A stretch of DNA of 64,000 nt from Helianthus annuus (taxonomy: Eukaryota > Streptophyta > Magnoliopsida > Asterales > Asteraceae), in the NCBI RefSeq assembly GCF_002127325.2, contig NC_035433.2, positions 83,022,079-83,086,078 of the forward strand. Reading direction: 5' to 3'. Positions 6,376 through 62,004 of this stretch are shown one piece after another. Position 1 is the stretch's first letter. Each line of letters starts with the position of its first letter. The notes beneath the pieces were generated by a model. It searched no databases. It saw nothing but the letters and a program-made list of their open reading frames with translations, and had not been told where the DNA came from. Position numbers and translations under genes: made by a program.

Positions 6376-6478
6376 TGACAGTATGGTTTCTCGACAAATG
6401 AAGTATTATCTGTCCTTGCTGCCTCTTCGGTTGGTAAAAGACATAGGATGGTTTCTAATACAGGCTCTTTGTCAGTTG
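6376..6478 (-). pseudogene. F-box domain fragment, copy 2
   Basis: About 100 bp nearly identical to copy 1, again giving EPVLETILCLLPTEEAART on the minus strand. The two copies are direct repeats about 140 bp apart, showing local duplication after capture. Confidence 0.7.
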
Positions 6479-36679: not shown

Positions 36680-38902
36680 TGTCACACCCCAACTGATGGC
36701 GGAATCATCGAGGCGCTACACTAAGCGAACAGATTGCTCAAGAAATACCATAATGACTATTTAAATGACAATATTTAACGACGCTTAATTTCCCATACAA
36801 TCAAACTCATATTTCATTCAATAATCAAACGGTTTTCATATTCCAGAACAAAGCAGTTCGACAACTAGATTTTTATTACAAGTTTCTAAAGCATAAAACC
36901 TAAGTCCAGTTGCGGTGCGATCCAATCAACCTGTCACATACGTTAAAATACAAGTCAATACAATAAAGTAAAGGTGAGCATATAGGTTTGCGTAATAATA
37001 GCATGGTAGAGAAAAAGTGACGCGAAATACCATATACACAAACATGATACACAAAAAACACATAGCAAAACCAGGCAAATTTCACATGCTAAATTCCGTG
37101 AGAAGGCTGGCGCGTCCATCCTAGCTAGACCCCGTCGGGTGTCAGCCACACTATAGTACCATACTAGCTAAGGAGGAAGTGAACGAAAATATGTCCTAGT
37201 ATACATGTTTCTAGCATCACGTAAGAGCATATGTAGCAGATATTCGCGTGAGATAAACAGTTTAGTATGCGTGGTGTGATTTAATATATGTGGAACGTAT
37301 GTAACACCCAAAAGTGCGTTTAAAGCGAAAAAGGGTTCAAGTATACTCACCGTGGGTGCGTAACAGGAAACACGGTTGGTCTTGAGGGAGCGAGGAGAGT
37401 GTCGGGTCAGCCTGCGGGTGAGATCAGAAGTGCATCAGTCTTCCGGTGCGAAAAAACAGTTGAACAAAACATCGGGTGGGTGCTGGGTCACTTCGGCCGA
37501 ACTGATCCAAGCAACTTCGATCGAAGTTGTCTTGGTCAACTTCGGTCGAAGTTGACTGCATTGTTGTCTTGTGATGTTGAGTACTCCACTTCGGTCGAAC
37601 TGGCCAAGCTACTTCGGCCGAAGTCAACTTCGGTCGAAGTTGGCTGGCCAGTTTCGAGCGAAGTTGGTTGTTTGGTGTCCGATTTGGTGCGTTTTCGTGC
37701 TGTTTGTCGAGGAAATCGAGTGTCCAGCTCCAACCTTGAGCTACTGAGCAAAACATAGGCTGGAGAGGTCTTGTAGAGCGAGTTTCGCCATTTTACAGGA
37801 ACTTAGACTAATTCATGCGAACTTGGCGGTTCATATGAGTTAGTCTAGTTCGTATAAAGCGACTATATCGTTTTTGTGCTTCCGGGTCTGGGTTTCCCGC
37901 TTGAAACAGACGTAAAAGTCAGATCTATTTCAAGTTTGAGGTCGACAATGCCTCATTCCACTACTTAGTGAACAAGACACACGTCGGTTAGTCCGTTTTA
38001 AGTGAAAAATCAAAGCTTTATCTGTTTTCTCAGATCTAGCACCTTGTGAGCCAAAACCATCAAGATTTCTGACTTGGGTAGCCAATGCTAAGCCCAATAC
38101 CCACAAACAAGCGTAGATCTAAGTGAAAAGAAGAAGTTTTGTAGAAAAAGATGAAGTTTTAGTAAAAGAGAAGTTCGTAAATGAAATCGAAGGTAAAACC
38201 TTGTGAAAATCGTTGTATAAACGTTGTGTTGTGCTTAAAACAAAGGTTTCTTACTTGTAAAATCAGTGAAATGGGTGTAGGAGAGTTCTGGAGCGAAGTG
38301 GCAGCAAGGAATGAGCAAATAGGGGAGAGAGGTATTTATAGGAAGTGAGATTTAGAGCTGGTTCAGGGCTAGTTCGGTCGAAGGGGGTCCCTTGGAGCCC
38401 ACTTCGGTCGAACCTGGTAAACTGGTGGAAGGTTGCCCCACTTCGAGCGACGTGGGGAGTGCCTGGTTCGGCCGAACTTGGCCTGCGGGCCAAGTTTGGC
38501 GTTTCGTTTCGTGTTTTAGCTGATTGTTTGGCGTTTTATTCGTATAGGTTAGTTATATTCAGCATATTTAAGTGTTATTAAGCGTTTTAGGTACTTTAAG
38601 TACTTAAATTAATTTAATTTAAATCAAATAGATAAGCAAGGTAGTATGCGTCTTAGTTCCCAAGCCTTGCGAGAGTCGCGTTGTTGTTTAAGCGAGCAGA
38701 TAGTCTTGGAAACATCACGCAATAGTATTGTTGATTAGCGAGTGCGATATAAGTGTTGTGAGGTGCGATGCATTGATAAGATGAGCGATGTAAGGTGAAA
38801 ATATGCAATGTAGCGTAGTAAGCAATATAGTTTACATTATGATCTGAATCTCTGGACCTAGGCGTAACGGGAATAACGAGCACAAAAGTGCGGGTTGTTA
38901 CA
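36680..38902 (-). repeat. 3' LTR of element C (2223 bp)
   Basis: Pairs with 42992-43383 plus 55871-57573. About 100 bp near 37215-37310 are missing from the other copy. It contains acttcggtcgaagt-type palindromes at 37490-37690 and 38370-38480, and a TATA at 38333-38340 (reverse). Confidence 0.93.
38333..38490 (-). promoter_or_regulatory. LTR promoter region of C: TATA and upstream ttcggtcgaa cluster
   Basis: Reverse 'ctataaatacc' at 38332-38342. Immediately upstream on the minus strand are ttcggtcgaag, cttcggtcgaacc, cttcgagcgacg and ttcggccgaactt. The other LTR copy has the same layout at 57004-57150. Confidence 0.55.
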
Positions 38903-38917
38903 GTCTCCCCTGCTTTA
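38903..38917 (-). other. Polypurine tract of C
   Basis: The minus strand reads taaagcaggggagac directly before TGTAACAACC. Confidence 0.8.
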
Positions 38918-39399
38918 GGAAATTTCATCCCGAGATTTATTCGAAAGGGAGACCTTGAGGTTTCACATGAATAGATAACGATAAAAGCGTTAGGGTGCAC
39001 TGAGAATGAACGAGCGGTCGAACGAGGGTTGACATGTGAGGGCGTTTCGGTGGCATGAGGGATCGACTGAGCAAAAGAGGCTTGATTGACTAGAGGGTAG
39101 AAGCTCACGAGTTAACGATGCATAATGTTTTAGGTTTTCGAAAAGTTTTGTTAATTTATTGCAAAAGGTTTTAAGGAAAACTTGATTTATGAAAATTTTC
39201 TTACGACGCGGTGTTAAGCTGAATCGGGTTAAACCTGTGTTGTAAGAAAAGTTTTTATTTGTACAAAGGTTTTCAATAAAATCAAAAAAATTTAGAAAGT
39301 TTTGCCATTTATTTTTTAAATAAAGTAAAAGTTTTAACGGTATTAAAAACTTTAATTTGCGTCAAACCCATTATGGCATCTTTCTACGAAAGTTTGATA

Positions 39400-39462
39400 G
39401 TATGGCTAAAACACTTATATATAGGAAGTACCAGCGGCGTATCCACCATGTTTTAGCCATAC
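39400..39462 (-). other. Conserved-loop hairpin, copy 1 (element C)
   Basis: Stem gtatggctaaaaca (39400-39413) pairs with tgttttagccatac (39449-39462). The 35-nt loop between them contains, on the sense (minus) strand, ggtggatacgccgctgg followed by tacttcctatatataag. Confidence 0.85.
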
Positions 39463-39613
39463 CGCCTCCGGCCCGTGGATCGGTGTCATATGTGTTGACA
39501 TGATATGGATGGATTTCGGTATCCTCGGTCCATGTGGCGAAAGGTTGGACCAAGTATTTTCAAGGCTTAGATATTGTCGAGCCCCACATGGCACGTTTTC
39601 ACGGAAGGTTGTT

Positions 39614-39678
39614 GATATGGCTAAAACACTTATATATAGGAAGTACCAGCGGCGTATCCACCATATTTTAGCCATATC
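39614..39678 (-). other. Conserved-loop hairpin, copy 2 (element C)
   Basis: Stem gatatggctaaaaca with tattttagccatatc. The loop (39629-39663) is identical to copy 1. The outer stem differs from copy 1 but still pairs. Confidence 0.85.
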
Positions 39679-39790
39679 GCCTCCTTCCCGTGAGGCGATG
39701 TCATGCGTGTCAACGTAAATTGGATAGATTTTCGGTGCCCTTGGTCCAAACGGAAAAAGGGTTGGACCAAGTTTGAAAGAAAACCAAGTA

Positions 39791-40170
39791 AGCTTGAGCG
39801 AATAAGCGGATTGCAAACTTAGTTAGGGATAAGAGTGTGCGCGTATGGTTTAACGATTGGAGTTTCGAAGCGGCAAAAGCGGCATAAGCGATAAGCGTTA
39901 AAGCGTCGAGGGGGAGGAAAAGCGATAAGCGGAGTGATAGCGTTAAGCGTCGAGAGGGGAAAGCGATAAGCGATAACGATAAATACGCGATATGAATGCG
40001 ATACGCGAAAGCGACAAATATGCAATGAGAATGCGATAAGCGATGCGACGTAATTTTTATCAAAAGCGAGATTGCGTTGCTATAGATTGAGAAGCGATGA
40101 GAAGTTATGCCTTGCGAAGGAGTTTTGCGTGTGAAAATAGTTACCATAATATAAAAGGTCTGATAACGTT
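39791..40170 (-). repeat. aagcgata-rich low-complexity tract
   Basis: Many variants of 'aagcgataagcg' and 'gcgatacgcg' words at 39870-40060, non-coding. The pattern also appears more weakly around 38740-38830 and near the E LTR. Confidence 0.6.
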
Positions 40171-40206
40171 CAACTACACATGGCATTTCTCCACGAAAGT
40201 TTGATA

Positions 40207-40268
40207 GCATGGCAAAGCACTTATATATAGGAAGTACCAGCAGCGTATCCACCATGCTTTAACCACAC
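40207..40268 (-). other. Conserved-loop hairpin, copy 3 (element C)
   Basis: Stem gcatggcaaagca with tgctttaaccac, imperfect (a bulge). The loop (40220-40254) has one substitution relative to copy 1. Confidence 0.75.
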
Positions 40269-40304
40269 TGTCTCCGTCTCGTGAATAGATGCCACGCTTG
40301 TCGA

Positions 40305-40364
40305 CATGGTTAAGTCACTTATATATAGGAAGTACCAGCGGCGTATCCACCACGCTTAACCATG
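40305..40364 (-). other. Conserved-loop hairpin, copy 4 (element C)
   Basis: Stem catggttaag (40305-40314) with cttaaccatg (40355-40364). The loop (40318-40352) is identical to copy 1. Relative to copies 1 and 2, a C:G pair in the stem is replaced by T:A. Confidence 0.82.
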
Positions 40365-40647
40365 CTTTTAGCGTTATGGCACCATTAGAATTCACTACGA
40401 TCTCCCTGCACCTACCAAGAGTAATCCTGTGTGCACCCGTGATTAATGTGGTATTTGCAGGATTATCGTAACTTGATTTAAAGGCGCGTAGTAGTGATTG
40501 TAAAAACACATTATATCGTGATATATCATATAGTGCTAATAATAAGTTTAGTGTGTGAACCTAGACTAAGTGCGAGAGGGGAAGAGAGAGAGAGAGAGAG
40601 ATAGAGATGTCGTCGTGTGCATAGGCGACATCGATCTATAGAATCAA

Positions 40648-41884
40648 TTACAAAGTATAAAAGCTAACGTCGAGGAACATACCGTTAACATTGTCATTCT
40701 GTGTCAGGTTGGCATCAATGGCGAGAACTCCTGCTTGTTCTGCAGTTGCTGTTGGAGTTTCTGATGTCGCTGCGGTTGCTGGTGCGTCGGCTGCAGGGCC
40801 TGCGGGCTGTATCGGTGGTGCAGGAAGTGCAGGTACAACTTGCAAGCGTGGTCCTGTGCGGCAGTTGCGGGTAAAGTGACCGAAACAGTTGCAGTTGATG
40901 CAATAGCGGCAGCTGGCTCCGATCTGGTGGTGGTACGTACATTTCGGGCACTGAGGATGAGTCTCGATGTAGTTACGCCTTGGGTAAGATGGAATTGCCT
41001 GGAGAGGTTCAGGGTTGAGCGGTGCAGTTGCTGAATAGTTGAGGCTCGAGCTTTTTCTCTTGCGGCTAGGTTCGGCGGCGTCTTGCAACGGTGCATCATC
41101 GTCGGATAAGTCGATGGTAGCTTGATTAAGCTTCTTGGTGGTACCTTTGGAGAAGACTCCGTCCATGATTCGCTTGTCGTTGATTTCTGCGGCTAATTAA
41201 TAGGCTTCTTCGATGGTAGCCGGTCTTGGAGCTTCGACAAAATCGCCCACACACTCAGGCAAAGCACGAAGGTACTTTTTGATCGCCTTTTCAGGAGTGT
41301 CAACTTGGCTCGGGCAAATGACGCTCAGCTGTTTGAACCTTGCTATGAGGCCGGCGTTGTCACCTTCAACTTGTTTGATATCCCAAAATTTGCTTTTTAG
41401 CTTCTGGACTTCGTAGGGAGGGCAATATTCTTCCTTCATGAGCTCCTTCAGCTCATCCCAGGATAGCGCGTATGCTGCGTCGTTCTCGCGTTTGTTACGC
41501 TCGGCTGTCCACCAGTCGAGGGCTCTTGATTGAAATACTCCTGTGGCGCACGTGGTATGAAAGTGCTCGGGGCACCCACTCTGACGAAGGGTAACCTCGA
41601 TAGCATCGAACCACTGAAACATCTGAGATACGCCTTCTTCTCCTGTGAAGGCCATTGGTCCACAAGCTTTGAACTGCTTGTAGGAGAAAGTAGACTTCGG
41701 TGCATTGGCGTTAGAGTCTTCCTATGTCTGCGAGTTCTTCCTATGTCTGCGAGTTGCTGAGGGCTTGAACTTGTGAGACGATTTGAGGAATGACCTTGGC
41801 CATTTCCTTGGCCACGAGCGAGGCAATCCTCTTATCGGCGTTTCGTCGGGTTTGACGTCGCGAGTTGGAAGCGTTCGAAGACAT
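40648..41884 (-). pseudogene. Element C gag with zinc knuckle
   Basis: Starts MSSNASNSRRQTRRNADKR at 41884. A stop occurs near 41739 within a small duplication of 'aactcgcagacataggaag'. The capsid core follows (GEEGVSQMFQWFDAIEVTL, ALDWWTAER, MKEEYCPPYEVQKLKSKFW). A further stop falls just after IEEAY (41197). Then a Lys/Pro-rich linker and a Cys/His region (CPKCTYHHQIGASCRYC, CINCNCFGHFTRNC). The frame reads into the first residues expected of the protease region (NVNGMFL), then changes to unrelated sequence and stops at 40648. Gag could once have packaged the element's RNA, and pol has been lost. Confidence 0.9.
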
Positions 41885-42975
41885 CTACACAAAGGGATTT
41901 GGAATGAGATTCGATCATAATGATTTTGAGTTTTACGATGCGATTTAGCGCGTTTTAAAACTTGTTGTAGTTAATATAGTAATACGTATTCACATAGGAT
42001 TTCACATAGGAACCACGTATATCCTAGATCTTCACATATTCACATAAGCACGTATATTCACATACTATTTATACGTATATATATATATATGTATATATAT
42101 TTTTATATATATAGGTCTATATATAGAGAGAGAGCGCGAGGACGCGTTTAAGAGGGTTGTTATGATTTAGTTTTGTTGCGAGTATTAGCTTTTGTTTTGG
42201 ATTACGATGGCTGTGCGAGTTGTGCGCATAATCGTAAAGAGAAAAAGCGATAAAACGAGAAATCAAGAAAGCGATTTTCAATTGAAAACACATAAGAATA
42301 ATAAAATTCGATGATGCGTAAAATCGACGATTGCAGACTTGAAATTTAATGGAGCGTCCTGGGTTTCGAGACAGCGACTAGCCAAAGTGGTTCAATCGTT
42401 CTCCAAATTCGGACACGCCCTTTGGCCTAATAAGTGGATGCTCTCACCGCCTCGTGGCTAACGACATCACCCTTCCAGTTACTATGCGCTCCGAGTCGTC
42501 GAAACAACCGAGACTTTGGTGAGATTTGAAAATCGTTGAGTGGGACGCGTCTTCAAGATTCGGGTTTCACCCCTAACTTAATAACTTCGAATCCCTGATT
42601 GTGGTTTCCTTCCCGGACCCATCAGGAGGTTTTACACCAGATAGAATAGAATGGGAAATTCCCGTTAAGATGTGGATATCACTCCTAACTTAACAGAGAA
42701 TTTCGTGCCAAAATAGAATACGCAGAGTGAGGGATTCGTCAAGAGTTCACGCTCTTCACACCTAATCTCGCCAAATCGACTCGTTGGTGATGTATGAATA
42801 TCTTTGTGACTCCGTGTGTTGTGTCCAATTCTTAGGAAAGACTTCGTAAAGTATTTTAAGTCCAAAGATAAGAGATTAGAAAGCAATGCAAGGAGAATAA
42901 AGTTTTAATCAGATAAGGGATAAGCATATAGTTTCCTACTATAGACTAGGCAATCTACCTAATTCCCTATAGTTA
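41885..42975 (-). other. Leader of element C
   Basis: Non-coding. It contains a (TA)n tract at 42067-42118 and a (ga/gc) run just after. No ORF is supported. Confidence 0.6.
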
Positions 42976-42988
42976 TGGCTCTGATACC
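42976..42988 (-). other. Primer-binding site of C (initiator-Met tRNA)
   Basis: The minus strand reads tggtatcagagcc, 3 bases from the LTR end. Confidence 0.88.
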
Positions 42989-42991
42989 AAT

Positions 42992-43383
42992 CTGTCACAC
43001 CCCAACCGATGGTGGAATCATCAGGGCGTGGCACTAAGCGAACAGATTGCTCAAGAAATACCATAATGACTATTTAAATGACAACATTTAACGATGCTTA
43101 ATTTCCCATACAATCAAAGCAGTTCGACAACTAGATTTTTATTACATGTTTCTAAAGCATAAAACGTAAGTCCAGTTGCGGTGCGATCCAATCAACCTGT
43201 CACATACGTTATAATACAAGTCAATACAATAAAGTAAAGGAGAGCATACATGTTTGCGTAATAATAGCATGGTAGAGAAAAAGTGACGCGAAATACCATA
43301 TACACAAACATGATACACAAAAACACATAGCAAAACCAGGCAAATTTCACATGCTAAATTCCGTGAGAAGGTTGGTGCGTCCA
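42992..43383 (-). repeat. 5' LTR of element C, distal part before D
   Basis: Matches 36680-37100 of the 3' LTR, then is cut by D with the GTCCA duplication (43379-43383). Confidence 0.92.
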
Positions 43384-44221
43384 TGTAACATTTGTGCTTG
43401 TAATCATTATGAACAGTTCAATTATCAATAAAACAATTTTATTTTATCCCAATGATTGTTTGATTGTGTTTTACATTTTTCATGTTTTGATTTTCGTTCA
43501 ATTTCAAACTCTACATCGCTTTCTGGAGCATTATACGCAAACTGGTGCGTAAACGTACTCAGTTTAATGCGACAAATACTCCGGAACATCAACATATACT
43601 CAACATACCTTAAATAACCTTTACATAACTTAGAAATAAGTTTTAAAGGCTTTGGTGTGGCAAAAACAAGATAATTCGCTTACAGGGACTAAACTTGACA
43701 AACTGTAAAAGTATGCCAATTTGAACTGTAACGAACATTCCGGAACATGTCCATAAGTTAAACATACCATAAATATCCTTTACACAGCTTAGAAATAGGC
43801 TTTGAGGGGTTTGGTATGCTAAAATAAACTTTTGGGTCATTCAGGGACTAAAAGTGTCAAAAAGTGCACAAGTTTGCACTTTTGCGCATAACTTACGTTC
43901 TGAATACATCCGGACATCCAAAAATTTATGTAAGCATCCTTATATTATGCCTTAGTGTTTGGCATGAGAAAAATCCATTCGTCGCGTCATTTGGACCGTC
44001 TTTCGCGCTTATGCGCATTCCGTCGTAATTAAGCGAACACCGCGATCGTACGGCCAAACGAGCCAACATCCGGAACATTTTTGGGCATGTTCCATGTCCA
44101 CAATGTTTAGGCATCATTTTGGGGCCTTAAAGATGGCTTTACAGGTCTTAAAAGGGCTGGAAATAGCTTAAAAACGCAACAGGGGCCAAATATGTAAATT
44201 CTGCAAGTGGTGCAGATCAGA

Positions 44222-44468
44222 CGGGGCCAGGCGACCCGCGTAAGATCTGCACTCCCTTTCACGCGGGCCGCGTGAGGATGTCTGACAGAAAGATTTTGCA
44301 TTTAATGCAAAATCTGGCCTTTCGTTCGATCAAGAGGCGATGCCTTTTCACCCAATGAAGGGCCAAGGGCCAAGTTCAGTGAATTTAACCATTGGACACA
44401 TGTACGCACGAGATCAAGGCACGATATTCGATAAAACGATCCTAACGGTTCCACTTTTCCTATAAATA
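44222..44468 (+). promoter_or_regulatory. LTR promoter region of D: gcgggccgcg words and TATA
   Basis: gcgacccgcgtaagatctgc and cacgcgggccgcgtgagg lie at 44230-44277, about 190 bp before the TATA box tataaata (44461-44468). A C homopolymer follows TATA and differs in length between the two LTRs. The 3' LTR TATA is at 53295-53302. Confidence 0.6.
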
Positions 44469-45550
44469 CCCCCCCCCCCCTTGTGTAAAAATCACAACAA
44501 TCTGATCTTGAAGCTCTAAGTTGAAACCATTGTTTCATACCTGAGCTATTTGATCTAGATTAGCACTCGGGGACCCTCCGTAAGTCTTCTTTTGCTCTTT
44601 TATTCGCTTTTCGAGTCCGAAAGTCAACGTTTTGTTGACTTTCTGCATTGACCAGCTTATGGTCGATGCGAAGTTCATGGAACTTCATAACGTGAGCGTG
44701 ATCACGATGGTTATGGTCCATAGTGACCATACCTACTGATCACCACGTTATCTAGGCTCGGTGACGAGTCGTAGTTTCGGCCAAAATGTGCATTCTTGCA
44801 TATTTTGTAACCAAACTACTCGTGGGCATCAAAGCCGTTTGTTTTGATGTCAAACCTGTTTTCTAAACTTAGTTAAGCATGTTCTAACATGCTTAGCTCG
44901 TCACGTTTAGTATAGTGCTTATATAGGGTCGTAAGGTAAGCGATCTAAACCATCGCTTATACTTTCGAACCCGACCCATTTGGTCGATCTTTAGGATCCG
45001 ACCAAACATATTAGGTGACCATAGCTATAACCTTCCGAGGTTATACCTTGTGGTCGCAATGTTAGGCGTTCCATACGCGTTCTACGCGAATGACGCGTTA
45101 GGGTGGCATAAGCTACCTCAACGGGTCGTGATGGACCGTAAGCACTTAGGTTAAGTTTCATTTTAGTATTTAGGCTTTGTTAAACCATATTACACGAGTC
45201 TCCATACTCGTTTGGTTTTCGAACCCGCGTACTGTCCGATCCTTCCGATTTGGTCCGGTATATTAACATAAGCTACCTATTAGGTGCCGTTGATATTCCG
45301 TGATCTTTAGCATTATCTGGTTATTTTACAAGGAACTCAAAGCAATCTCAGGTGAGTACATAGAACCCCTCTTTTACTGTTTTCCAACTATTTTGGGGTG
45401 AAACACATGTGCCTATCTGTTACATTCATGCTTTCCATGTTTTCACATCATATGCCTGCTATGTTGTTAGTACATTATAGTACATGATTTCATTACATTT
45501 CATGCTATGTATGCCCATTGTGTGCGTACTTAGTACATTGTTTTACATTA

Positions 45551-45790
45551 CATTTCTGTTGCATATGTTTACTCAGCATATGGACACATTGATTTATATG
45601 AACATTTCTGTTGCATATGTTTACTCAGCATATGGACACATTGATTTACATGAACATTTCTGTTGCATATGTTTACTCAACATATGGACACATTGATTTA
45701 CATGAACAATTCTGCTGCATATGTTTACTCAGCATATGGGCACATTGATTTACATGAGCACTTCTGCTTCGTATGTTTACTTAGCATACT
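45551..45790 (+). repeat. 52-bp tandem repeats in the D 5' LTR
   Basis: Units begin catttctgttgcatatgttt at 45551, 45603, 45655, 45707 and 45759 (the last incomplete), period exactly 52. Each contains the inverted pair gcatatg...catatgg. They lie downstream of TATA, so they should be transcribed. Confidence 0.93.
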
Positions 45791-46389
45791 TAGTACAATT
45801 GTTTACATCACATGCCTTCATTTTGTTATGACATTTGGTTTGTTTAAACATGGGACAATACATTCATTAACATTGATCACGCCGTTCGTTAGTAGGTAGT
45901 GGTACCATAGGAATTGACAACTCCCATTCCTGAAGTCCTGGGTTTGATAGGACTGGAAGGAATGACCGAATTCGATATACATAACTTAGATAAACCTTTA
46001 ATTTGTTTAAGGGTTTATCGCCACAGTCTCAAGGCTTGGATGTATGCATAGTTTACAATACCGCATAAATGTTAATATCAATAGAGCATGCATTTTTCCA
46101 CAGAACATAACGTTGATTTAACCCACGTGTTACTTCAACGACTTGTTTTGTGCAGTTTACATATGGTTTAAGTTGATACATTTCGCTTACCATACATGAT
46201 ACATTTTGGGATACATATTACATGATTTACATTGAACATAAACACGTCGACATTGACATACACATTTGGTCGTTTACATTTGAACATAAACATTTGACAT
46301 GGTTTACAATAACACTTGACATTTGGTTTACACATGAACAATTTACACGGTGGATTGGTTTGGGTAAATGATTTAAGTAACGTGGCGTA

Positions 46390-46460
46390 TGTAATATGAT
46401 ACAAACATGGTGGATACGCCGCTGGTACTTCCTATATATAAATGTTTGTATAATATTACA
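46390..46460 (+). other. Conserved-loop hairpin, copy 5 (element D 5' LTR)
   Basis: Stem tgtaatatgatacaaaca (46390-46407) pairs with tgtttgtataatattaca (46443-46460), 17 of 18 pairs. The loop (46408-46442) matches the loops in element C at all but one position, while the stem sequence is unrelated to theirs. The orientation is the same relative to transcription. Confidence 0.88.
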
Positions 46461-47039
46461 TATCGTGGCGTTATCTAAGTCATTTCAGTTTAGACACATT
46501 ACATTTTACATAAATAACATATTCTTCACAAGACATTATCTTCATAAACAACTTATCTTATTCAACTCATTTTACTTGGTTATTCGTTTAACCTTGCACT
46601 TATCTATACATATCCTTTGATGTTATCGTTTTTCAAATGATTTACAAAGCAAAACAAATTACAAGGTTCATGACTGACTGTTATTAAACATTTCTTTAAG
46701 CTCAAGTCATGAATCCCATTTTCACAAAAACTATGTATCTCACAGGCATTTTTATGCTGACGTACCTACCTTCACATGTGTTTTCAGGAGCTATTCCATA
46801 GGACGATGATCATGATTCTAGGGCGGACCTGTGCCTTAGAGCCTAAAAATGAAGTTTGAACTAGCTTAATTATGTTTTGATTTCCGTACTCTCTTTCCAA
46901 GACAATGTAACACCTTTGTTTATAAATAAAATACAACTTGTATGCCATGGTTATGAAACAATTTAATTCTGTCCACAACACTCCCCGGCGTTTCCGCCGC
47001 GGTTGCATGTTATACGCGGCCGGGGTGTGACAGAAGAGT

Positions 47040-47052: not shown

Positions 47053-47656
47053 AATGGTTATAAGGAACTAGGTTATTAGTAATGCTTTGACCTAGACTAT
47101 AACTTTAGGACCCTAACACAAGTTATCTTGTGTTTAGAGTTTAAAACATGCACATCACCTATCCTTAGGTGATAACCACAACGGGAACTTCGGTTCCGAA
47201 TCCGCTTTGAAAACTAATCATCTGTTCTAGGATGATTGATTACTAGGTTTTGAACCCTCTATTGTAAGGTTTTGAACCCTCTATTATAAGGTTTTGAACC
47301 CCTTTGGATTTTCAAAAATCCCGTCAAAGTGTTGGGTTAATAGTGTGAACACGTGCGAACTGGAAGGGTGAATGCCTGTACCCTGAGTTTTCTGTCTAAG
47401 GCTAGAGTGTTCGTACAAATCCACATAATCGGACCAGTCACTCTTACCTGGGAACTCTTGGGGTGAGTGTTCACTTATAGGCGAGCATGTCTTCGCGATA
47501 CACTAATTCTGACCCATTTACTTTGACTAGACATTTCATATCGCTTGTTTGCATTGCGATGCATAACCACCATCTTTGCTTTTATTGATTCTGTTTCATC
47601 TCGTTCTCTACACCCAATCATCTCACTCGTTTCCTTTCATGTTTTCCTCTTCCAGA
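47053..47656 (+). other. Leader of element D
   Basis: Untranslated region between primer site and gag. It has a short direct duplication of 'aaggttttgaaccctctatt' near 47246-47290. No ORF is supported. Confidence 0.6.
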
Positions 47657-48790
47657 ATGCCTCCTCGACGTGAACACCAAATAGCGACTGCTGAACTGGC
47701 AGAGATCATTGCGCAGCAGATGGCTGCTCAATTCCCGAATCTCTTTACTCAATGGAACCAGGCCAACAACAACAACAATGGTACATGCAAATACAAAGAT
47801 TTTAACTCGGCTAAGCCACTCAAGTTTAGTGGTTCTGAGGGAGCAACTGGGCTTCTTCAGTGGTTCGAGAGCATCGAGAACACTTTCCGTCATGTTCAGT
47901 GTCCTGACAATCGCAAGGTCGAGTTTTCTTCAAGCGTGTTTCAGAAGAGGGCTCTAACATGGTGGAATGGGGTTATGAGAGATCAAGGTGCAGAAGTTGC
48001 TCTAGCTCAATCATGGGCTGAACTAAGAGCCCTTATGATGAAGGAGTTTTGTCCTCGTCATGAACAGCGAGCGTTGGAGAAAGAATTTGATATTTTGAAG
48101 CAAGATAGTGGTGAGCACAGGGCTTATACAGATAGGTTTGAGGAGTTGAGTCTTCTTTGCCCAACTATGGTTACCCCACTCGATAAGGCTATCGAAAGGT
48201 ACATCGACGGCCTACCTGACTCAGTACAAGACATTCTCACTGGTAGCAACCCTACCACACTCCGTCAGGCAATCGAGTTATCAGCGACACTGACTGAGTC
48301 GCAGATTCGGAAGAATAAGCTACACAGGAAGGGCGACAAGGACAAGAAGCAGTCGGCTGACAAGGAGGATAGTAAGAAAGGTCAGAACAAGAAGGGAAAG
48401 GACTCTGGTTCCTCAAGGGGGTCAAGGAAGCGTAAGGCTTCCCAAAATTTTGCTGTGACTGCCCAAGCTAACCAGGCAGCTCCCAACCAGCCTCCAGCAA
48501 AGAAACCCTACTCAGGAAGTGCACCTTTGTGCAATCAATGCAACAGTCACCATCAGCCGCAATATCAGTGCCGTTTCTGTACTAACTGTGGGAAATCAGG
48601 TCATCTTGCCAATGTTTGTCGGTTTGCTCAGAACCGCGCAGTACAGAACCCTGCTCCACAAGTTGCTCAACAACAGGGTCAGGTTGCACGACCAAACTAC
48701 CCACCAGGTGCGTGTTATAATTGTGGGGATCTGACCCACTACAGAAATCGGTGTCCAAAACTAGTCAACCAGAACCAGAATGCAAACTAG
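47657..48790 (+). CDS. Element D gag
   Basis: Start chosen at MPPRREHQIATAELAEIIAQ (47657). The frame is open 27 codons further upstream, but MPPRR is the usual start of this group. The capsid core includes GATGLLQWFESIENTFRHVQ, RALTWWNGVM and MKEFCPRHEQRALEKEF. A Lys/Ser-rich linker and two zinc knuckles follow (CRFCTNCGKSGHLANVC and CYNCGDLTHYRNRC). It forms virus-like particles that package element RNA. The frame ends at a TAG (48788-48790) inside a linker that would normally run on into protease, so the stop looks like a mutation in a gag-pol fusion rather than a designed end. Confidence 0.93.
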   Translation: MPPRREHQIATAELAEIIAQQMAAQFPNLFTQWNQANNNNNGTCKYKDFNSAKPLKFSGSEGATGLLQWFESIENTFRHVQCPDNRKVEFSSSVFQKRALTWWNGVMRDQGAEVALAQSWAELRALMMKEFCPRHEQRALEKEFDILKQDSGEHRAYTDRFEELSLLCPTMVTPLDKAIERYIDGLPDSVQDILTGSNPTTLRQAIELSATLTESQIRKNKLHRKGDKDKKQSADKEDSKKGQNKKGKDSGSSRGSRKRKASQNFAVTAQANQAAPNQPPAKKPYSGSAPLCNQCNSHHQPQYQCRFCTNCGKSGHLANVCRFAQNRAVQNPAPQVAQQQGQVARPNYPPGACYNCGDLTHYRNRCPKLVNQNQNAN

Positions 48791-49732
48791 AATCCGGCAC
48801 CGGCTCGAGGACGAGTCTTCAACATGAATGCACAAGAAGCACAAGCAGACAACGAGGTGGTGAACGGTACGTTCTTTATTAATAATCAGCCAGCATCTGT
48901 TCTTTTTGATTCGGGTGCCGACAAGAGCTTTGTGTCATTGTCTTTTGAGACAATGCTTCGCGTGTCTAGAACGAAACTAGGTAAACCTTTGACAGTAGAG
49001 GTTGCCAATGGCGAACCCATTGTTCTTAATTCCGTTCTACGCAACTGCCAGTTAAACCTTAACGACCATATTTTTCCTATTGACCTCACGCCAATGCAAC
49101 TTGGAAGCTTCGACGTTATAGTGGGAATGGATTGGTTATCCAAGCATCATGCAGAGATAATTTGTTCTGAGAAGATTATTCGTGTACCACTGTCAACAGG
49201 CGAGATCCTACAGGTCCATGGTGAGAAACCTGCCGGTGGTCTCAAACTCATGTCCTGTTTTAAAGCACGGAAGTATCTGCGAAAGCACTATGTGGCTTTC
49301 TTAGCACATGTTACAGCGGATAAAGGCAAGGGTAAGTCTATTTCAGATATTCCTGTCGTTCGGGATTATTCCGAAGTATTCCCTGAAGACTTACCTGGTC
49401 TACCTCCAGCACGCCAAGTCGAGTTCCGTATTGATCTCGTACCTGGTGCAAATCCCGTTGCCAGAGCTCCATACCGTCTTGCACCGTCAGAGATGCAAGA
49501 ATTATCAAAACAGCTGCAGGAACTCTCCGACAAAGGTTTTATCCGTCCTAGCTTTTCACCTTGGGGTGCTCCCGTTCTCTTTGTAAAGAAGAAGGATGGA
49601 TCTTTTAGGATGTGTATCGATTATCGTGAGCTTAACAAGCTTACCATCAAGAATCGATATCCCCTACCTCGCATTGATGATCTCTTTGACCAATTGCAAG
49701 GTGCTTCATACTTTTCAAAGATTGATCTATGA
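48791..49732 (+). pseudogene. Element D protease and RT fingers
   Basis: Same frame as gag, past the TAG. Protease shows [10 protein letters not shown] and [18 protein letters not shown] begins with [15 protein letters not shown], then [20 protein letters not shown] and [22 protein letters not shown] at 49730-49732 follows YFSKIDL, just before the conserved SGYHQ. The stop sits at a CpG-type position. Confidence 0.93.
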
Positions 49733-50503
49733 TCTGGATATCATCAGCTCCGTGTGCATGAAGAAGATATTCCAAAGACAGCGTTCCGTACTCGTTATGG
49801 ACATTACGAGTTCACAGTCATGCCATTCGGTTTGACTAATGCTCCTGCTGTTTTCATGGACTTAATGAATAGGGTCTGCAAGCCTTATTTAGATAAGTTC
49901 ATCATTGTTTTCATTGACGACATTTTGATATATTCTAAGACGCGAGCTGATCATGAGCAACATCTCCGTCTTACTTTGGAACTCCTAAAGAAAGAACAAC
50001 TTTTCGCCAAATTCTCCAAGTGTGAATTCTGGCTTAAAGAGGTTCAATTCTTAGGACATATTGTCAACGAACAAGGTATTCAAGTAGATCCCTCCAAGAT
50101 CAGTGCGATTAGGGATTGGGATACACCTACTACTCCTACTGAAGTTCGTTCTTTTCTTGGTCTAGCGGGTTATTACCGCCGCTTCATAGAAAATTTCTCA
50201 AAGATCGCAGTTCCTCTAACTGCTCTAACTCAGAAGAACAAGCCATTTGATTGGGGAGTCAAACAAGAGGAAGCGTTTCAGACTTTGAAGCAAAAGCTTT
50301 GCGACGCGCCTATCCTAACATTGCCTGAGGGCAACGATGATTTTGTCGTTTATTGCGACGCATCTAAATTAGGTCTTGGCTGCGTCCTGATGCAAAGAAA
50401 CAAGGTCATAGCATACGCATCAAGACAGTTGAAGATACATGAGAGGAACTACACCACTCATGATCTTGAGTTGGGTGCAGTGGTCTTCGCTCTCAAAATC
50501 TAG
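49733..50503 (+). pseudogene. Element D RT palm to RNase H start
   Basis: Same frame continuing [12 protein letters not shown], then [20 protein letters not shown] and the RT active site [10 protein letters not shown]. The RT/RNase H connection ([15 protein letters not shown]) and RNase H start ([18 protein letters not shown]) follow. Ends at a TAG (50501-50503) after VVFALKI, where the family has Trp. Confidence 0.93.
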
Positions 50504-52183
50504 AGACACTATTTGTACGGCACAAAATGTGTGGTTTTCACAGACCACAAAAGTCTTCAGCATATCTTCAATCAAAAAGAGCTCAACATGAGACAACGAC
50601 GTTGGGTTGAACTTCTAAACGACTACGATTGCGAGATTCGCTACCATCCTGGTAAGGCGAATGTCGTAGCCGATGCATTGAGTCGCAAGGAACGTACTAA
50701 GCTTCATTGTGTACGTGTCCAATCTGTTATTCAAACCGATATACAAGCCCGTATTTCTCAGCCTCAACAAGCTTGTGTTTCACAAGGCTTGATGGATAAG
50801 GAATTTCCTTATCACATAACACCTGCTCTTGAACTGAAGGACAATGGATCATATTACTTCATGGACCGTTTGTGGGTCCCGAGCCAAGATAATCTTCGTA
50901 CCTTGCTTATGGATGAAGCCCATAAGTCTCGTTATTCTATTCATCCTGGCTCAGATAAGATGTATAAGGATCTTCGTATTCAGTATTGGTGGCCTGGTAT
51001 GAAGAAAGACATTGCCTTATACGTATCAAAATGCCTTACTTGTCTTAAGGTTAAGGCTGAACATCAGCGTCCTGCTGGCTTATTGGAACAACCAGAGATC
51101 CCAGTTTGGAAATGGGAAAACATTACTATGGATCTCATTACTAAACTCCCGCGCACAAAGAAAGGTCACGATGCCATCTGGGTAATCGTTGATCGTCTTA
51201 CCAAATCAGCGCATTTCTTGCCAATCCGTGAGGATTTTTCGGCTGACAAACTTGCTCAAATCTACGTGGATGAAATTGTAGCTAGACATGGTGTTCCTTT
51301 GAGCATCATTTCTGACAGAGATGCTCGTTTCACTTCTCACTTTTGGAGAACCATGCAATCTGCTATGGGGTCCCAACTTAATCTGAGCACAGCTTATCAT
51401 CCGCAAACGGATGGTCAATCTGAAAGAACAATCCAGACACTGGAGGATATGCTTAGAGCTTGTGTGATCGACTTTGGTGGTAGTTGGGATTCACATCTTC
51501 CATTGATTGAATTCTCCTACAACAACAGTTATCACTCCAGCATCAACATGGCTCCTTTCGAGGCTCTCTATGGTCGAAAATGTCGTTCACCAGTCTGCTG
51601 GAATGAGATTGGCGAGGCTCAACTTACTGGACCTGCCCTCATTTTAGAGACAACAGATAAGGTAAAGAAAGTTCGTGATAACCTTCAGACAGCTAGAAGT
51701 CGTCAGAAGAACTACGCGGATTTAAAACGCAAGCCCTTGGATTTTCAAGTCGGTGATCGTGTATTACTTAAGGTCTCACCTTGGAAGGGTGTGATCAGAT
51801 TCGGAAAGAAAGGAAAACTTGCACCTAGATACGTTGGACCATTTAAGATCGTCGAAAGAATCGGCAAGGTAGCCTACAGACTTGAGTTGCCTCCTGAACT
51901 TGGAAATGTTCATCCAACTTTTCACGTGTCCAATCTCAAGAGGTGTTTAGCTGATGAGAACCTCCACATACCGCTTGACGAAATTCGTGTTGATAAAACC
52001 CTGAAATTTGTCGAGAAACCAGTGGAAATCATGGAATGTGAAGTCAAGTGGCTTAAACGCAAGCGCATTCCTTTGGTCAAGGTTCGTTGGGAATCTAAGC
52101 GTGGACCCGAGTTTACTTGGGAACGTGAGGATCAAATGAAGGCAAAATATCCGCATCTTTTTCCACGAGTTTCCTCTAAATAA
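50504..52183 (+). pseudogene. Element D RNase H end, integrase and chromodomain
   Basis: Same frame again: [20 protein letters not shown] and [14 protein letters not shown] (RNase H); integrase zinc region [10 protein letters not shown] ... [12 protein letters not shown]; core acidic residues in [19 protein letters not shown] and [18 protein letters not shown]-type C-terminal domain ([20 protein letters not shown]); chromodomain-like tail ([30 protein letters not shown]). Stop TAA at 52181-52183. All catalytic positions are present. Confidence 0.95.
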
Positions 52184-52217: not shown

Positions 52218-55200
52218 TGTAACATTTGTGCTTGTAATCATTATGAACAGTTCAATTATCAATAAAACAATTTTATTTTATCCCATCGATTGTTTGATTG
52301 TGTTTTACATTTTTCATGTTTTGACTTTCGTTCAATTTCAAACTCTACATCGCTTTCTGGAGCATTATACGCAAACTGGTGCGTAAACGTACTCAGTTTA
52401 ATGCGACAAATACTCCGGAACATCAACATATACTCAACATACCTTAAATAACCTTTACATAACTTAGAAATAAGTTTTAAAGGCTTTGGTGTGGCAAAAA
52501 CAAGATAATTCGCTTACAGGGACTAAACTTGACAAACTGTAAAAGTATGCCAATTTGAACTGTAACGAACATTCCGGAACATGTCCATAAGTTAAACATA
52601 CCATAAATATCCTTTACACAGCTTAGAAATAGGCTTTGAGGGGTTTGGTATGCTAAAATAAACTTTTGGGTCATTCAGGGACTAAAAGTGTCAAAAAGTG
52701 CACAAGTTTGCACTTTTGCGCATAACTTACGTTCTGAATACATCCGGACATCCAAAAATTTATGTAAGCATCCTTATATTATGCCTTAGTGTTTGGCATG
52801 AGAAAAATCCATTCGTCGCGTCATTTGGACCGTCTTTCGCGCTTATGCGCATTCCGTCGTAATTAAGCGAACACCGCGATCGTACGGCCAAACGAGCCAA
52901 CATCCGGAACATTTTTGGGCATGTTCCATGTCCACAATGTTTAGGCATCATTTTGGGGCCTTAAAGATGGCTTTACAGGTCTTAAAAGGGCTGGAAATAG
53001 CTTAAAAACGCAACAGGGGCCAAATATGTAAATTCTGCAAGTGGTGCAGATCAGACGGGGCCAGGCGACCCGCGTAAGATCTGCACTCCCTTTCACGCGG
53101 GCCGCGTGAGGATGTTTGACAGAAAGATTTTGCATTTAATGCAAAATCTGGCCTTTCGTTCGATCAAGAGGCGATGCCTTTTCACCCAATGAAGGGCCAA
53201 GGGCCAAGTTCAGTGAATTTAACCATTGGACACATGTACGCACGAGATCAAGGCACGATATTCGATAAAACGATCCTAACGGTTCCACTTTTCCTATAAA
53301 TACCCCCCCCCCTTTGTGTAAAAATCACAACAATCTGATCTTGAAGCTCTAAGTTGAAACCATTGTTTCATACCTGAGCTATTTGATCTAGATTAGCACT
53401 CGGGGACCCTCCGTAAGTCTTCTTTCGCTCTTTTATTCGCTTTTCGAGTCCGAAAGTCAACGTTTTGTTGACTTTCTGCATTGACCAGCTTATGGTCGAT
53501 GCGAAGTTCATGGAACTTCATAACGTGAGCGTGATCACGATGGTTATGGTCCATAGTGACCATACCTACTGATCACCACGTTATCTAGGCTCGGTGACGA
53601 GTCGTAGTTTCGGCCAAAATGTGCATTCTTGCATATTTTGTAACCAAACTACTCGTGGGCATCAAAGCCGTTTGTTTTGATGTCAAACCTGTTTTCTAAA
53701 CTTAGTTAAGCATGTTCTAACATGCTTAGCTCGTCACGTTTAGTATAGTGCTTATATAGGGTCGTAAGGTAAGCGATCTAAACCATCGCTTATACTTTCG
53801 AACCCGACCCATTTGGTCGATCTTTAGGATCCGACCAAACATATTAGGTGACCATAGCTATAACCTTCCGAGGTTATACCTTGTGGTCGCAATGTTAGGC
53901 GTTCCATACGCGTTCTACGCGAATGACGCGTTAGGGTGGCATAAGCTACCTCAACGGGTCGTGATGGACCGTAAGCACTTAGGTTAAGTTTCATTTTAGT
54001 ATGTAGGCTTTGTTAAACCATATTACACGAGTCTCCATACTCGTTTGGTTTTCGAACCCGCGTACTGTCCGATCCTTCCGATTTGGTCCGGTATATTAAC
54101 ATAAGCTACCTATTAGGTGCCGTTGATATTCCGTGATCTTTAGCATTATCTGGTTATTTTACAAGGAACTCAAAGCAATCTCAGGTGAGTACATAGAACC
54201 CCTCTTTTACTGTTTTCCAACTATTTTGGGGTGAAACACATGTGCCTATCTGTTACATTCATGCTTTCCATGTTTTCACATCATATGCCTGCTATGTTGT
54301 TAGTACATTATAGTACACGATTTCATTACATTTCATGCTATGTATGCCCATTGTGTGCGTACTTAGTACATTGTTTTACATTACATTTCTGTTGCATATG
54401 TTTACTCAGCATATGGACACATTGATTTATATGAACATTTCTGTTGCATATGTTTACTCAGCATATGGACACATTGATTTACATGAACATTTCTGTTGCA
54501 TATGTTTACTCAACATATGGACACATTGATTTACATGAACAATTCTGCTGCATATGTTTACTCAGCATATGGGCACATTGATTTACATGAGCACTTCTGC
54601 TTCGTATGTTTACTTAGCATACTTAGTACAATTGTTTACATCACATGCCTTCATTTTGTTATGACATTTGGTTTGTTTAAACATGGGACAATACATTCAT
54701 TAACATTGATCACGCCGTTCGTTAGTAGGTAGTGGTACCATAGGAATTGACAACTCCCATTCCTGAAGTCCTGGGTTTGATAGGACTGGAAGGAATGACC
54801 GAATTCGATATACATAACTTAGATAAACCTTTAATTTGTTTAAGGGTTTATCGCCACAGTCTCAAGGCTTGGATGTATGCATAGTTTACAATACCGCATA
54901 AATGTTAATATCAATAGAGCATGCATTTTTCCACAGAACATAACGTTGATTTAACCCACGTGTTACTTCAACGACTTGTTTTGTGCAGTTTACATATGGT
55001 TTAAGTTGATACATTTCGCTTACCATACATGATACATTTTGGGATACATATTACATGATTTACATTGAACATAAACACGTCGACATTGACATACACATTT
55101 GGTCGTTTACATTTGAACATAAACATTTGACATGGTTTACAATAACACTTGACATTTGGTTTACACATGAACAATTTACACGGTGGATTGGTTTGGGTAA

Positions 55201-55865
55201 ATGATTTAAGTAACGTGGCGTATGTAATATGATACAAACATGGTGGATACGCCGCTGGTACTTCCTATATATAAATGTTTGTATAATATTACATATCGTG
55301 GCGTTATCTAAGTCATTTCAGTTTAGACACATTACATTTTACATAAATAACATATTCTTCACAAGACATTATCTTCATAAACAACTTATCTTATTCAACT
55401 CATTTTACTTGGTTATTCGTTTAACCTTGCACTTATCTATACATATCGTTTGATGTTATCGTTTTTCAAATGATTTATAAAGCAAAACAAATTACAAGGT
55501 TCATGACTGACTGTTATTAAACATTTCTTTAAGCTCAAGTCATGAATCCCATTTTCACAAAAACTATGTATCTCACAGGCATTTTTATGCTGACGTACCT
55601 ACCTTCACATGTGTTTTCAGGAGCTATTCCATAGGACGATGATCATGATTCTAGGGCGGACCTGTGCCTTAGAGCCTAAAAATGAAGTTTGAACTAGCTT
55701 AATTATGTTTTGATTTCCGTACTCTCTTTCCAAGACAATGTAACACCTTTGTTTATAAATAAAATACAACTTGTATGCCATGGTTATGAAACAATTTAAT
55801 TCTGTCCACAACACTCCCCGGCGTTTCCGCCGCGGTTGCATGTTATACGCGGCCGGGGTGTGACA
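52218..55865 (+). repeat. 3' LTR of element D (3648 bp)
   Basis: Nearly identical to 43384-47032. It carries the 52-bp repeats at 54384-54623 and hairpin copy 6 at 55223-55293. Confidence 0.96.
55223..55293 (+). other. Conserved-loop hairpin, copy 6 (element D 3' LTR)
   Basis: Identical to copy 5, with its loop at 55241-55275. Confidence 0.88.
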
Positions 55866-55870
55866 GTCCA

Positions 55871-57573
55871 TCCTAGCTAGACCCCGTCGGGTGTCAGCCA
55901 CACTATAGTACCATACTAGCTAAGGAGGAAGTTAACGAAAATATGTCCTAGTATACATGTTTCTAGCATCACGTCCAAAAGTGCATTTAAAGCGAAAAAG
56001 GGTTCAAGTATACTCACCGTGGGTGCGTAACAGCAAACACGGCTGGTCTTGAGGGAGCGAGGAGAGTGTCGGGTCAGCCTGGGGGTGAGATCAGAAGTGC
56101 ATCAGTCTTCCGGTGTGAAAAACAGTTGAACGAAACATCGGGTGGGTGTTGGGTCACTTCGGCCGAACTGATCCAAGCAACTTCGATCGAAGTTGTCTTG
56201 GTCAACTTCGGTCTAAGTTGACTGCATTGTTGTCTTTTAATGTTGTGTACTCCACTTCGGTCGAACTGGCCAAGCTACTTCGGTCGAAGTCAACTTCGGT
56301 CGAAGTTAGCTGGTCAGTTTCGAGCGAAGTTGGCTGTTTGGGGTCTGATTTGGTGCGTTTTCGTGCCGTTTGTCGAGGAAATCGAGTGTCCAGCTTTCCA
56401 ACCTTGTGCTACTGAGCAAAACATAGGCTGGAGAGGTCTTGTAGAGCGAGTTTAGCCATTTTACAGGAACTTAGACTAATTCATGCGAACTCGGCGGTTC
56501 ATATGAGTTAGTCTAGTTCGTATAAAGCGACTGTATCGTCTTTGTGCTTCCGGATCTGGGTTTTCACGCTTGAAACAGACGTAAAAGTCAGATCTATTTC
56601 AGGTTTGAGGTCGACAATGCCTCGTTCCACTACTTAGTGAACAAGACACACGTCGGTTAGTCCGTTTTAAGTGTAAAAATTGAAGCTTTATCTGTTTTTC
56701 TCAGATCTAGCACCTTGTGACCCAAAACCATCAAGATTTCTGACTTGGGTATCCAAAGCTAAGCCCAATACACACAAACAAGCGTAGATCTAAGTGAAAA
56801 GAAGAAGTTTTGTAGAAAAAGATAAAGTTTTCGTAAAAGAGAAGTTCGTAAACGAAATTGAAGGTAAAACCTTGTGAAAATCGTTGTATAAACGTTGTGT
56901 TGTGCTTAAAACAAAGGTTTCTTACTTGTAAAATCAGTGAAATGGGTGTAGGAGAGTTCTGGAGCGAAGTGGCAGCAAGGAATGAACGAATGGGGGAGCG
57001 AGGTATTTATAGGAAGTGAGATTTAGAGCTGGTTCAAGGCTAGTTCGGTCGAAGGGGGTCCCTTGGAGCCCACTTCGGTCGAACCTGGTAAACTGGTGGA
57101 AGGCTGCCCCACTTCGAGCGACGTGGGGAGTGCCTAGTTCGGCCGAACTTGGCCTGCGGGCCAAGTTTGGGGTTTCGTTTCGTGTTTTAGCTGATTGTTT
57201 GGCGTTTTATTCGTATAGGTTAGCTATATTCAGCATTATTAAGTGTTATTAAGCGTTTTAGGTGCTTTAAGTGCTTAAATTTATTTAATTTAAATCAAAC
57301 AGATAAGCGAGGTAGTATGCGTCTTAGTTCCCAAGCCTTGCGAGATTCGTGTTGTTGTTTAAGCGAGCAGAGAGTCTTTTAAACGTCACGCAATAGTATT
57401 GTCGATTAACGAGTGCGATATAAGCGTTGTGAGGTGCGATGCATTGATAAGATGAGCGATGTAATGCAAAAATATGCGATGTAGCATAGTAAGCGATATA
57501 GTTTACATTATGATCCGAATCTCTGGTGCTAGGCGTAACGGGAGTAACGAGCACGATAGTGCGGGTTGTTACA
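55871..57573 (-). repeat. 5' LTR of element C, remainder after D
   Basis: Continues the LTR interrupted at 43383. It includes palindromes at 56155-56330 and 57040-57150 and a TATA at 57004-57011 (reverse). Compared with the 3' LTR it lacks about 100 bp near 55976. Confidence 0.92.
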
Positions 57574-60187: not shown

Positions 60188-60204
60188 GTCTCCCCTCCTT
60201 TTGG
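60188..60204 (-). other. Polypurine tract of E
   Basis: The minus strand reads aaaaggaggggagac directly before TGTAACAACC. Confidence 0.8.
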
Positions 60205-60221
60205 GAATTTCGTCCCGAAAT

Positions 60222-61437: not shown

Positions 61438-61543
61438 TGTAACGCATCGAAAATTCGTACCCAATAAAATAAAGACACGTGTTATGAGGGACAAACATGT
61501 CCGGAACCCGGATCAAATAAAGATGTATGGTAGGATTTGAAAA

Positions 61544-61617
61544 GGGCGTCATCTTATTAAAATACCTCTGAACGACCCAAGGGCGACATGTTATTAAAAT
61601 ACCTCTGAACGACCCAA
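61544..61617 (+). repeat. 36-bp direct duplication in the F LTR
   Basis: Two copies of gggcg.cat.ttattaaaat followed by acctctgaacgacccaa, at 61544 and 61580. Confidence 0.85.
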
Positions 61618-62004
61618 ATTATAAAATCCCAAGATCCTTAAATTGTTTGACAAACATCTGTTATATATTAACCGGTTGTTCCTAAATAAATGAAATTCCA
61701 TCTTTTATATGGAAATTGGGTCATTAAGGATATTACTACTAAAATCCTGATTAAATTCTTGTCTAAGAAAGATTGGAACTTACTTAATAAAACATGTTTA
61801 GCCTTTGTAAGAATCCAAGGTTTTAAACTTGGAAATTTTCCGTCACTTTAAGTTGTTACAAGATGCCAAGGATTTTAAAAGCATGCTAAGCATGCAATGG
61901 CTGAGCAAACTCGTCCCCCAACTGGAAAAGATGGCATGAGATTCGGAGTCCACGAAGTTGCATGGTCAAGGCTTGAAGTTTGTAAAAATTTTTGTCTTCT
62001 GGCC

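Follow-up and report, generated by a model that had tools for sequence, protein, structure and literature searches.

A covarying hairpin shared by sunflower long terminal repeat retrotransposons, and its kissing-loop-like neighbour, as candidate signals for RNA packaging and dimerisation

We describe here a structured element of about 136 nt, HP1, that is carried by several families of long terminal repeat (LTR) retrotransposons of the sunflower, Helianthus annuus, and that occurs six times in a 64,000-nt stretch of contig NC_035433.2 (positions 83,022,079 to 83,086,078 of the forward strand; hereafter the window, with positions counted from its first letter). HP1 is made up of an inner stem of 17 bp (P3), an outer stem (P2, "AACGA/TCGTT"-like) and a nearly invariant apical loop; many single-copy folds add further pairing outside P2. 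The conclusion that its stems are kept by compensatory change, and hence that it is a structured RNA, is well supported. A second hairpin, HP2, with a self-complementary sequence in its loop, is found near HP1 in many places. The mechanism that we put forward, in which HP1 would act in cis as a recognition element of the sense RNA and allow packaging in trans, and HP2 would be the dimerisation site, has, taken as a whole, about an even chance of being right.

The original prediction for this DNA placed six hairpins in the window, four in one retrotransposon (element C) and one in each LTR of another (element D), all in sense orientation and with a loop that hardly changes. Searching the window with one half of the loop, the 17-nt GGTGGATACGCCGCTGG, recovers these same six copies at the predicted coordinates and orientations, five of them as exact matches and the third copy of C with one mismatch, where 0.03 matches are expected by chance and six were reached in 0 of 100 shuffles. 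The interior of C has four copies on the minus strand, between gag and the 3′ LTR, and each LTR of D has one on the plus strand, about 0.54–0.68 kb before the LTR ends. The first three copies of C are full elements at 39362..39497 (loop half 39431–39447), 39577..39712 (loop half 39646–39662) and 40169..40303 (loop half 40237–40253, carrying the one change), and they score 120.0, 125.1 and 111.9 bits against a covariance model in which they are themselves included; the fourth (40305..40364), whose flank adjoins the third, comprises the inner stem and loop only and gives a partial match of 63.2 bits, not being in the model. The two D copies (46358..46494 and 55191..55327) are identical to each other and to genomic locus L028, which is in the model, and score 128.6 bits each. 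The window stems differ and still fold, as predicted: that of the first copy of C is perfect, those of the second and fourth are near-perfect, that of the third has a one-base bulge and G.U pairs, and that of D has one mismatch in 20. The predicted extent was right for the inner stem and loop, although the element proves to be larger, with P2 as a second helix. The small stem proposed inside the loop (ggatac with gta-cu-tcc) gave way to GGTG/CGCC in most folds, which is too invariant for a covariation test. Direct CGTGGCG repeats that resemble a target duplication flank the HP1 of D (46381–46470); they were not seen in the other families and are probably coincidence. We also rejected the idea that HP1 is a miniature inverted-repeat transposable element, as its arms vary (P3 has 68% identity) and its centre is conserved (98.6%), the reverse of conserved terminal inverted repeats.

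HP1 is abundant well beyond the window. Within two mismatches, the loop 17-mer occurs at 36,372 places (18,159 + 18,213) in the 3.01-Gb genome, compared with 71 (35 + 36) for the reversed 17-mer, genome counts of repeats being lower bounds throughout. Copies for alignment were drawn from 30 three-kb, 20 ten-kb and 40 short loci, all on the contig denoted C1, where only three lie beyond the first 14.3 Mb, such that the sample is local. These loci and the window yielded 68 distinct copies; removing the truncated L079 and L089 and then near-duplicates at 96% left 49, and setting aside two copies at array boundaries, in which P2 is unalignable, left 47. The covariance model (R1) and the 30-copy covariation analysis used 30 of 35 references, leaving out a near-duplicate and a loop variant of kept families (L009, L015), two copies from array boundaries and the copy of D that L028 duplicates. 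For one stem pair the A-T combination, the only one counted genome-wide, was present at 3,341 places. Five exact loops stand on one strand within 1.1 kb at C1:12690298-12691385, and in L066–L068, three copies of this five-loop array, the stems are unlike those of the main families.

In the 30-copy set, both partners have changed at 17 of 30 pairs, and covariation scores 0.340 versus 0.181 (sd 0.010) after shuffling (0/500), with slid partners reaching at most 0.094, a shuffled comparison that relatedness of the copies can inflate. The 47 copies were evaluated by whole-helix statistics on a tree null of our own making, in which Fitch changes are re-dealt to the branches and gaps are filled by parsimony. 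On this null P3 is paired in 92.4% of cells versus 68.4% (sd 4.4, maximum 80.9; 0/300) and P2 in 73.7% versus 61.0%; double compensations on the same branch, P3 and P2 together, number 24 versus a null mean of 3.0 and maximum of 10, and a single change breaks a pair 45 times versus a null mean of 65.9 and minimum of 52. Total pairing in an R-scape-like test of the 30 copies (90.7% versus 75.4%, maximum 80.1) lies above all 40 nulls. All 47 copies share a homologous stem, and by alignment the stems of all families are diverged homologues, including that of D, which had been called wholly unrelated and is not independent of the others. The earlier argument that the hairpins bear the signature of structure, and not of simple shared ancestry, holds as regards a structured nucleic acid and fails as regards ancestry, since the stems are homologous and ancestry and selection act together. 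The genome-wide check proposed at the time bore the prediction out, in that many more copies exist, in sense orientation in LTR elements and with pairing above a phylogenetic null.

Several results weigh against this conclusion. Single changes that keep a pair (71) fall inside the null range (mean 55.1, maximum 73); support for P2 is weak, with 3 of 300 nulls as high; and in the R-scape-like test of the 30 copies only 1 of 30 pairs passed on its own, while none of the column pairs survived correction for all pairs. Moreover, the minimum-energy fold is not P3 in 3 of 34 copies (L016, L022 and L023, of the F type described below), where the loop pairs with the 3′ arm. The loop of these three contains CATGGTG, which can pair with CACCATG of the 3′ arm, and the resulting rival fold may be either an error of prediction or a switch.

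The kind of change seen in the stems also bears on which molecule carries the structure. Counted on the sense strand in the 47 copies, Watson-Crick pairs change to G.T in 40 events and to A.C in 20 (p = 0.013); a process acting on double-stranded DNA ought to yield both kinds equally often, so HP1 is probably carried by the sense RNA. An element acting as DNA, with the loop as a promoter or protein site and the arms forming a cruciform or being kept alike by template switching, therefore appears quite improbable: the loop does contain a TATA-like word, TATATATAAG, and template switching can also keep arms complementary, but the two-to-one ratio departs from one-to-one and 13 of the 47 copies have G.G, G.A or A.G at one P3 position, mismatches that homogenisation of the arms would remove. 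Furthermore, each of four LTRs examined has a separate TATAAATA box upstream of its end, at −1811 (F), −1661 (C), −2574 (D) and −1238 (E), and HP1 lies outside the LTR in C and F, observations on which we also rejected the loop TATATATA as an LTR TATA box or promoter. With the TATAAATA boxes predicted so far upstream, HP1 should fall within the transcribed part. Conservation, for its part, peaks in the loop (mean pairwise identity 98.6% versus 45% outside; loop changes are single positions in single copies, among the 30), whereas the stem sequences vary. Long hairpins are Dicer substrates in general, but this distribution makes it very unlikely that HP1 is a source of small RNA or a neutral palindrome caught by host silencing.

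A conserved core on variable stems, present as several copies in a row in C, in group G below and in the five-copy array, might recall a new self-cleaving ribozyme of the retrozyme kind. This we regard as the least probable of the alternatives, given that the conserved part is one apical loop, that the host elements are kilobases long with a primer binding site and polypurine tract, and that no Rfam 15 family, hammerhead and twister included, matched at its gathering score anywhere in the window, L032, L043, L044, L035, L036, L039 or L047. A lax Rfam search of window positions 39300–46600 gave only sub-threshold miRNA and thermometer models, and a 24-nt piece of the loop has no exact match in GTDB contigs or viral contigs, as expected for a plant element. 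Among the open-access papers listed for the topic, none describes this hairpin in its title or the opening of its abstract, and the loop letters gave no hit there. Within Rfam 15 and those searches, our view is that HP1 and HP2 are undescribed so far.

Five groups of HP1-bearing elements could be told apart. Group D is autonomous and has HP1 in its LTR, as does group E (L039, L047 and others), which is non-coding where its interior is seen; HP1 is internal in the gag-only group C (the window element, L034 and L044), in group F (L032, where it is non-coding, and six more loci) and in group G (L031 and L043), which has two or three copies. HP1 is thus common to the autonomous D and to the non-coding or gag-only C, E and F, as well as G as far as seen, and the predicted sense orientation holds in both window elements and in 20 of 20 ten-kb loci, L031 being oriented only via L043. 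The primer binding site and a block beside the polypurine tract are common to C, D, E and F. The longest stop-to-stop stretch of L032 is 138 aa and its LTRs are 99.91% identical, from which it follows that this element moved recently, presumably by means of proteins made elsewhere; as F encodes no long protein and has nonetheless moved, HP1 probably serves the RNA itself rather than translation. Beside one intact copy, L044 contains HP1 relics (3815–3921, 4405–4511 and ~4663–4738) with partly paired arms and without the 35-nt loop. Further small inverted repeats occur in the 5′ part of F (L032, 2786–2838 and 2869–2919), near a segment (2984–3175) that resembles the leader of C; a third structured element in this part of F is possible.

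Internal HP1 in C, F and G lies before the 3′ LTR, often in clusters, with four copies in C and five exact loops in the 1.1-kb array, an arrangement that would suit an element to which a host protein binds to export, stabilise or translate the RNA, as with the musD transport element (MTE), the RNA transport element (RTE) of the intracisternal A particle (IAP) or the constitutive transport element (CTE) of Mason-Pfizer monkey virus (MPMV). The MPMV CTE is a structured export element of an LTR retroelement. The likeness of HP1 to all three is one of description, and HP1, unlike them, is found in LTRs as well. The MTE and RTE are structured RNA elements of mouse LTR retroelements, and no direct study of RNA export exists for plant LTR elements, according to the excerpted text of a review (PMC12786077). 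A host factor would also explain the sharing between families, but the non-coding F gains nothing from translation, the LTR location in D and E fits poorly, and the nearby HP2 points to dimerisation instead; we consider host-factor export or stability a real but distinctly lesser possibility, ranked second to packaging by Gag.

Inverted repeats that precede HP1 in C and F led us to HP2, which takes two forms. HP2a, whose loop holds the palindrome GTGCAC, lies in the window at 40371..40496 on the minus strand (inner stem and loop 40422–40445), on the 5′ side of HP1 when C is read in its sense direction, and has the tip TAATC..GG-GTGCAC-AC..GATTA. It is present in 7 of 7 F loci, 3 of 3 C elements and 1 of 2 G loci, and in none of nine D/E ten-kb loci. 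Across 10 copies, 14 of 43 arm pairs change on both sides and 87.3% are paired versus 82.2% after shuffling, although one of five covariation measures, that of further pair types, was no better than the shuffled null, the only null applied here. An 18-mer of HP2a occurs within two mismatches at 4,408 places genome-wide (control 12), and in the stretch of C1 covered by our list of exact HP1 loops 11 of 12 listed places are followed within 1.5 kb by one of these loops on their own strand. HP2b, ATTATG-G[palindrome]A-CATAAT, is inside 4 of 9 D/E loci, with the core ATGCAT in L035, AGGCCT in L036 and L047 and ACGCGT in L039, and occurs at 6,385 places genome-wide (control 0). Of the first 100 of these on C1, 95 have self-complementary cores (64 ATGCAT, 18 AGGCCT, 13 ACGCGT) and 5 do not; these places are related copies and not independent events, so that the weight rests on the three self-complementary cores in one stem. 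In the covered stretch, 14 of 22 HP2b places have an exact HP1 on their own strand within 4 kb in either direction, and 1 of 22 has one on the opposite strand only; misses may reflect mutated HP1, the list being confined to exact loops.

Both forms can be drawn with a G-C pair that closes a loop of 8 nt, G-N6-A, and the predicted folds present a 6-nt self-complementary sequence in the apical loop, with purines on either side (G before and A after, bases that the HP2b search pattern fixed; one scan for such hairpins likewise demanded purines here). Where it can be placed, HP2 is internal and precedes the 3′ LTR by ~0.45 to 3.2 kb. Because the 6-mer is self-complementary, is flanked by purines and changes in ways that keep its self-complementarity, predicted HP2 fits, and has the signature of, a kissing-loop dimer site. 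Other candidates for this role fared worse: GTGCAC at position 480 of the D LTR was rejected, being neither conserved nor in a loop when folded, a CACGTG hairpin in the D LTR is weak and its palindrome is lost in D relatives, and the palindrome UAUAUAUA of the HP1 loop is broken in 4 of 68 copies with no alternative palindrome seen, which gives no evidence for a dimer role of HP1. Just 3′ of HP2b in L039 (~4649–5178), a 9-nt word recurs every ~106 nt, with six matches listed, which suggests a tandem array.

The closest parallel to HP2 is the dimer initiation site (DIS) of HIV-1, where GUGCAC is flanked by purines in the excerpt of PMC7357161. HP2 has the same apical loop with a purine-flanked, 6-nt self-complementary core (GUGCAC in one class), and in HP2b the core differs between copies and stays self-complementary; it differs in being internal rather than in the 5′ leader and in its predicted arms of ~45 nt. 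HP1 itself is not of this kind. Yeast Ty3 belongs to the same superfamily, and its dimerisation has been proposed to begin at a short palindrome at the tip of a hairpin (excerpt of PMC11381356); the Ty3 DS/PAL6 and Ty1 palindromes share with HP2 the palindromic tip, but are located at the 5′ end, have CUGCAG, belong to one element and were tested in vitro. Like the gag-only C, the sunflower TR-GAG elements have gag alone between LTRs, and the excerpt of PMC9784723 that describes them mentions no RNA element. Turning to plant signals of a comparable purpose, we note that the window element D belongs to the Ty3/gypsy type. BARE1 and BARE2 of barley, which are of the Copia type, have predicted packaging (PSI) and DIS signals that are shared with non-autonomous partners, and the barley large retrotransposon derivatives (LARDs) have conserved non-coding interiors; these are not known to have the covariation evidence or the shared invariant loop that characterize HP1.

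How might the two hairpins act together? HP1, with its nearly invariant loop, is most plausibly a site recognised by a factor that autonomous and non-autonomous elements have in common, and among the functions listed in the original prediction (packaging, dimerisation, translation control, self-cleavage, a protein target) packaging and dimerisation of retrotransposon RNA are now favoured because the kissing-loop-like HP2 neighbours HP1. On the mechanism we favour, HP1 would be transcribed from the TATAAATA box of the LTR; its invariant loop, held out on the stem, would be bound by a trans-acting factor, most likely the Gag/nucleocapsid of autonomous elements; this binding would mark the RNA for packaging, whereby non-autonomous elements could be mobilised in trans; and in the non-autonomous elements HP2 loops would kiss and so initiate dimerisation of the RNA. 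Several points speak against it: the coding element B (visible part, 57942–64000) and element A, both in the window, have no HP1; the position of HP1 is not fixed, being in the LTR of D and E and internal in C, F and G; HP2 is internal, whereas retroviral and Ty3 dimer sites are at the 5′ end; and the autonomous D has no convincing HP2. Action in reverse transcription (first-strand transfer, contact between the 5′ and 3′ ends, or primer placement) might be entertained because Ty1 and Ty3 need contacts between the RNA ends (excerpt of PMC4974528), yet among the best eight loop complements per element in C, D, E, F and L044 none stands at a matching place in all families, which tells equally against cyclisation by pairing of the loop elsewhere in the element and leaves this role unlikely.

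The window itself records the history of the elements concerned. C is a gag-only element on the minus strand with its interior at 38903–42992; its 3′ LTR (36680..38902) matches 42993–43384 plus 55975–57573, the two parts of a 5′ LTR that was split by the insertion of D. The gag of C (40648..41721, minus strand) comprises two open reading frames (ORFs) with the frame broken, the ORF at 41197–41721 containing PF03732 and PF19259, and on the same strand are the primer binding site TGGTATCAGAGCC (42977..42989) and the block adjoining the polypurine tract (38913..38931). D is a Ty3/gypsy element on the plus strand, with LTRs at 43384..47033 and 52218..55866 that are 99.7% identical and a gag-protease-reverse transcriptase-RNaseH-integrase region (47567..52183) in four ORF pieces of the Ty3/gypsy type; the named best matches to its gag are from Helianthus. 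A 52-bp tandem repeat array lies upstream of HP1 in each D LTR (45446–45840 and 54279–54673). Element B, on the minus strand, is coding (57942–61275) and has an LTR related to that of C and a similar block beside the polypurine tract. In element A, two direct repeats of 1,903 bp (16688–18590 and 22524–24426) are 100% identical, and from their sequence it looks like a very recently inserted LTR element.

LTR retrotransposons account for up to 90% of some plant genomes (excerpt of PMC12786077), and the cis-acting RNA signals of these elements in plants are hardly known. The present work uses covariation within a single genome to define two structured RNAs, HP1 at ~36,000 places and HP2a plus HP2b at ~10,800. 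Both are candidates that experiment can address directly when asking which plant retrotransposon RNAs are selected, how they dimerise and how autonomous and non-autonomous elements come to share them; the different HP2 loops resemble compensatory mutants of a dimer site that nature has supplied. More tentatively, and with rather less confidence than in the mechanism itself, HP1 and HP2 may be a portable RNA module, one hairpin recognised by Gag and the other a kissing-loop dimer site, that has spread through several sunflower Ty3/gypsy families and by which non-autonomous elements get their RNA packaged by autonomous relatives, with the palindromes serving as codes for self-recognition. If this were true, the HP2 palindromes (GUGCAC, AUGCAU, AGGCCU and ACGCGU) would determine the partners with which a retrotransposon RNA pairs and is packaged.

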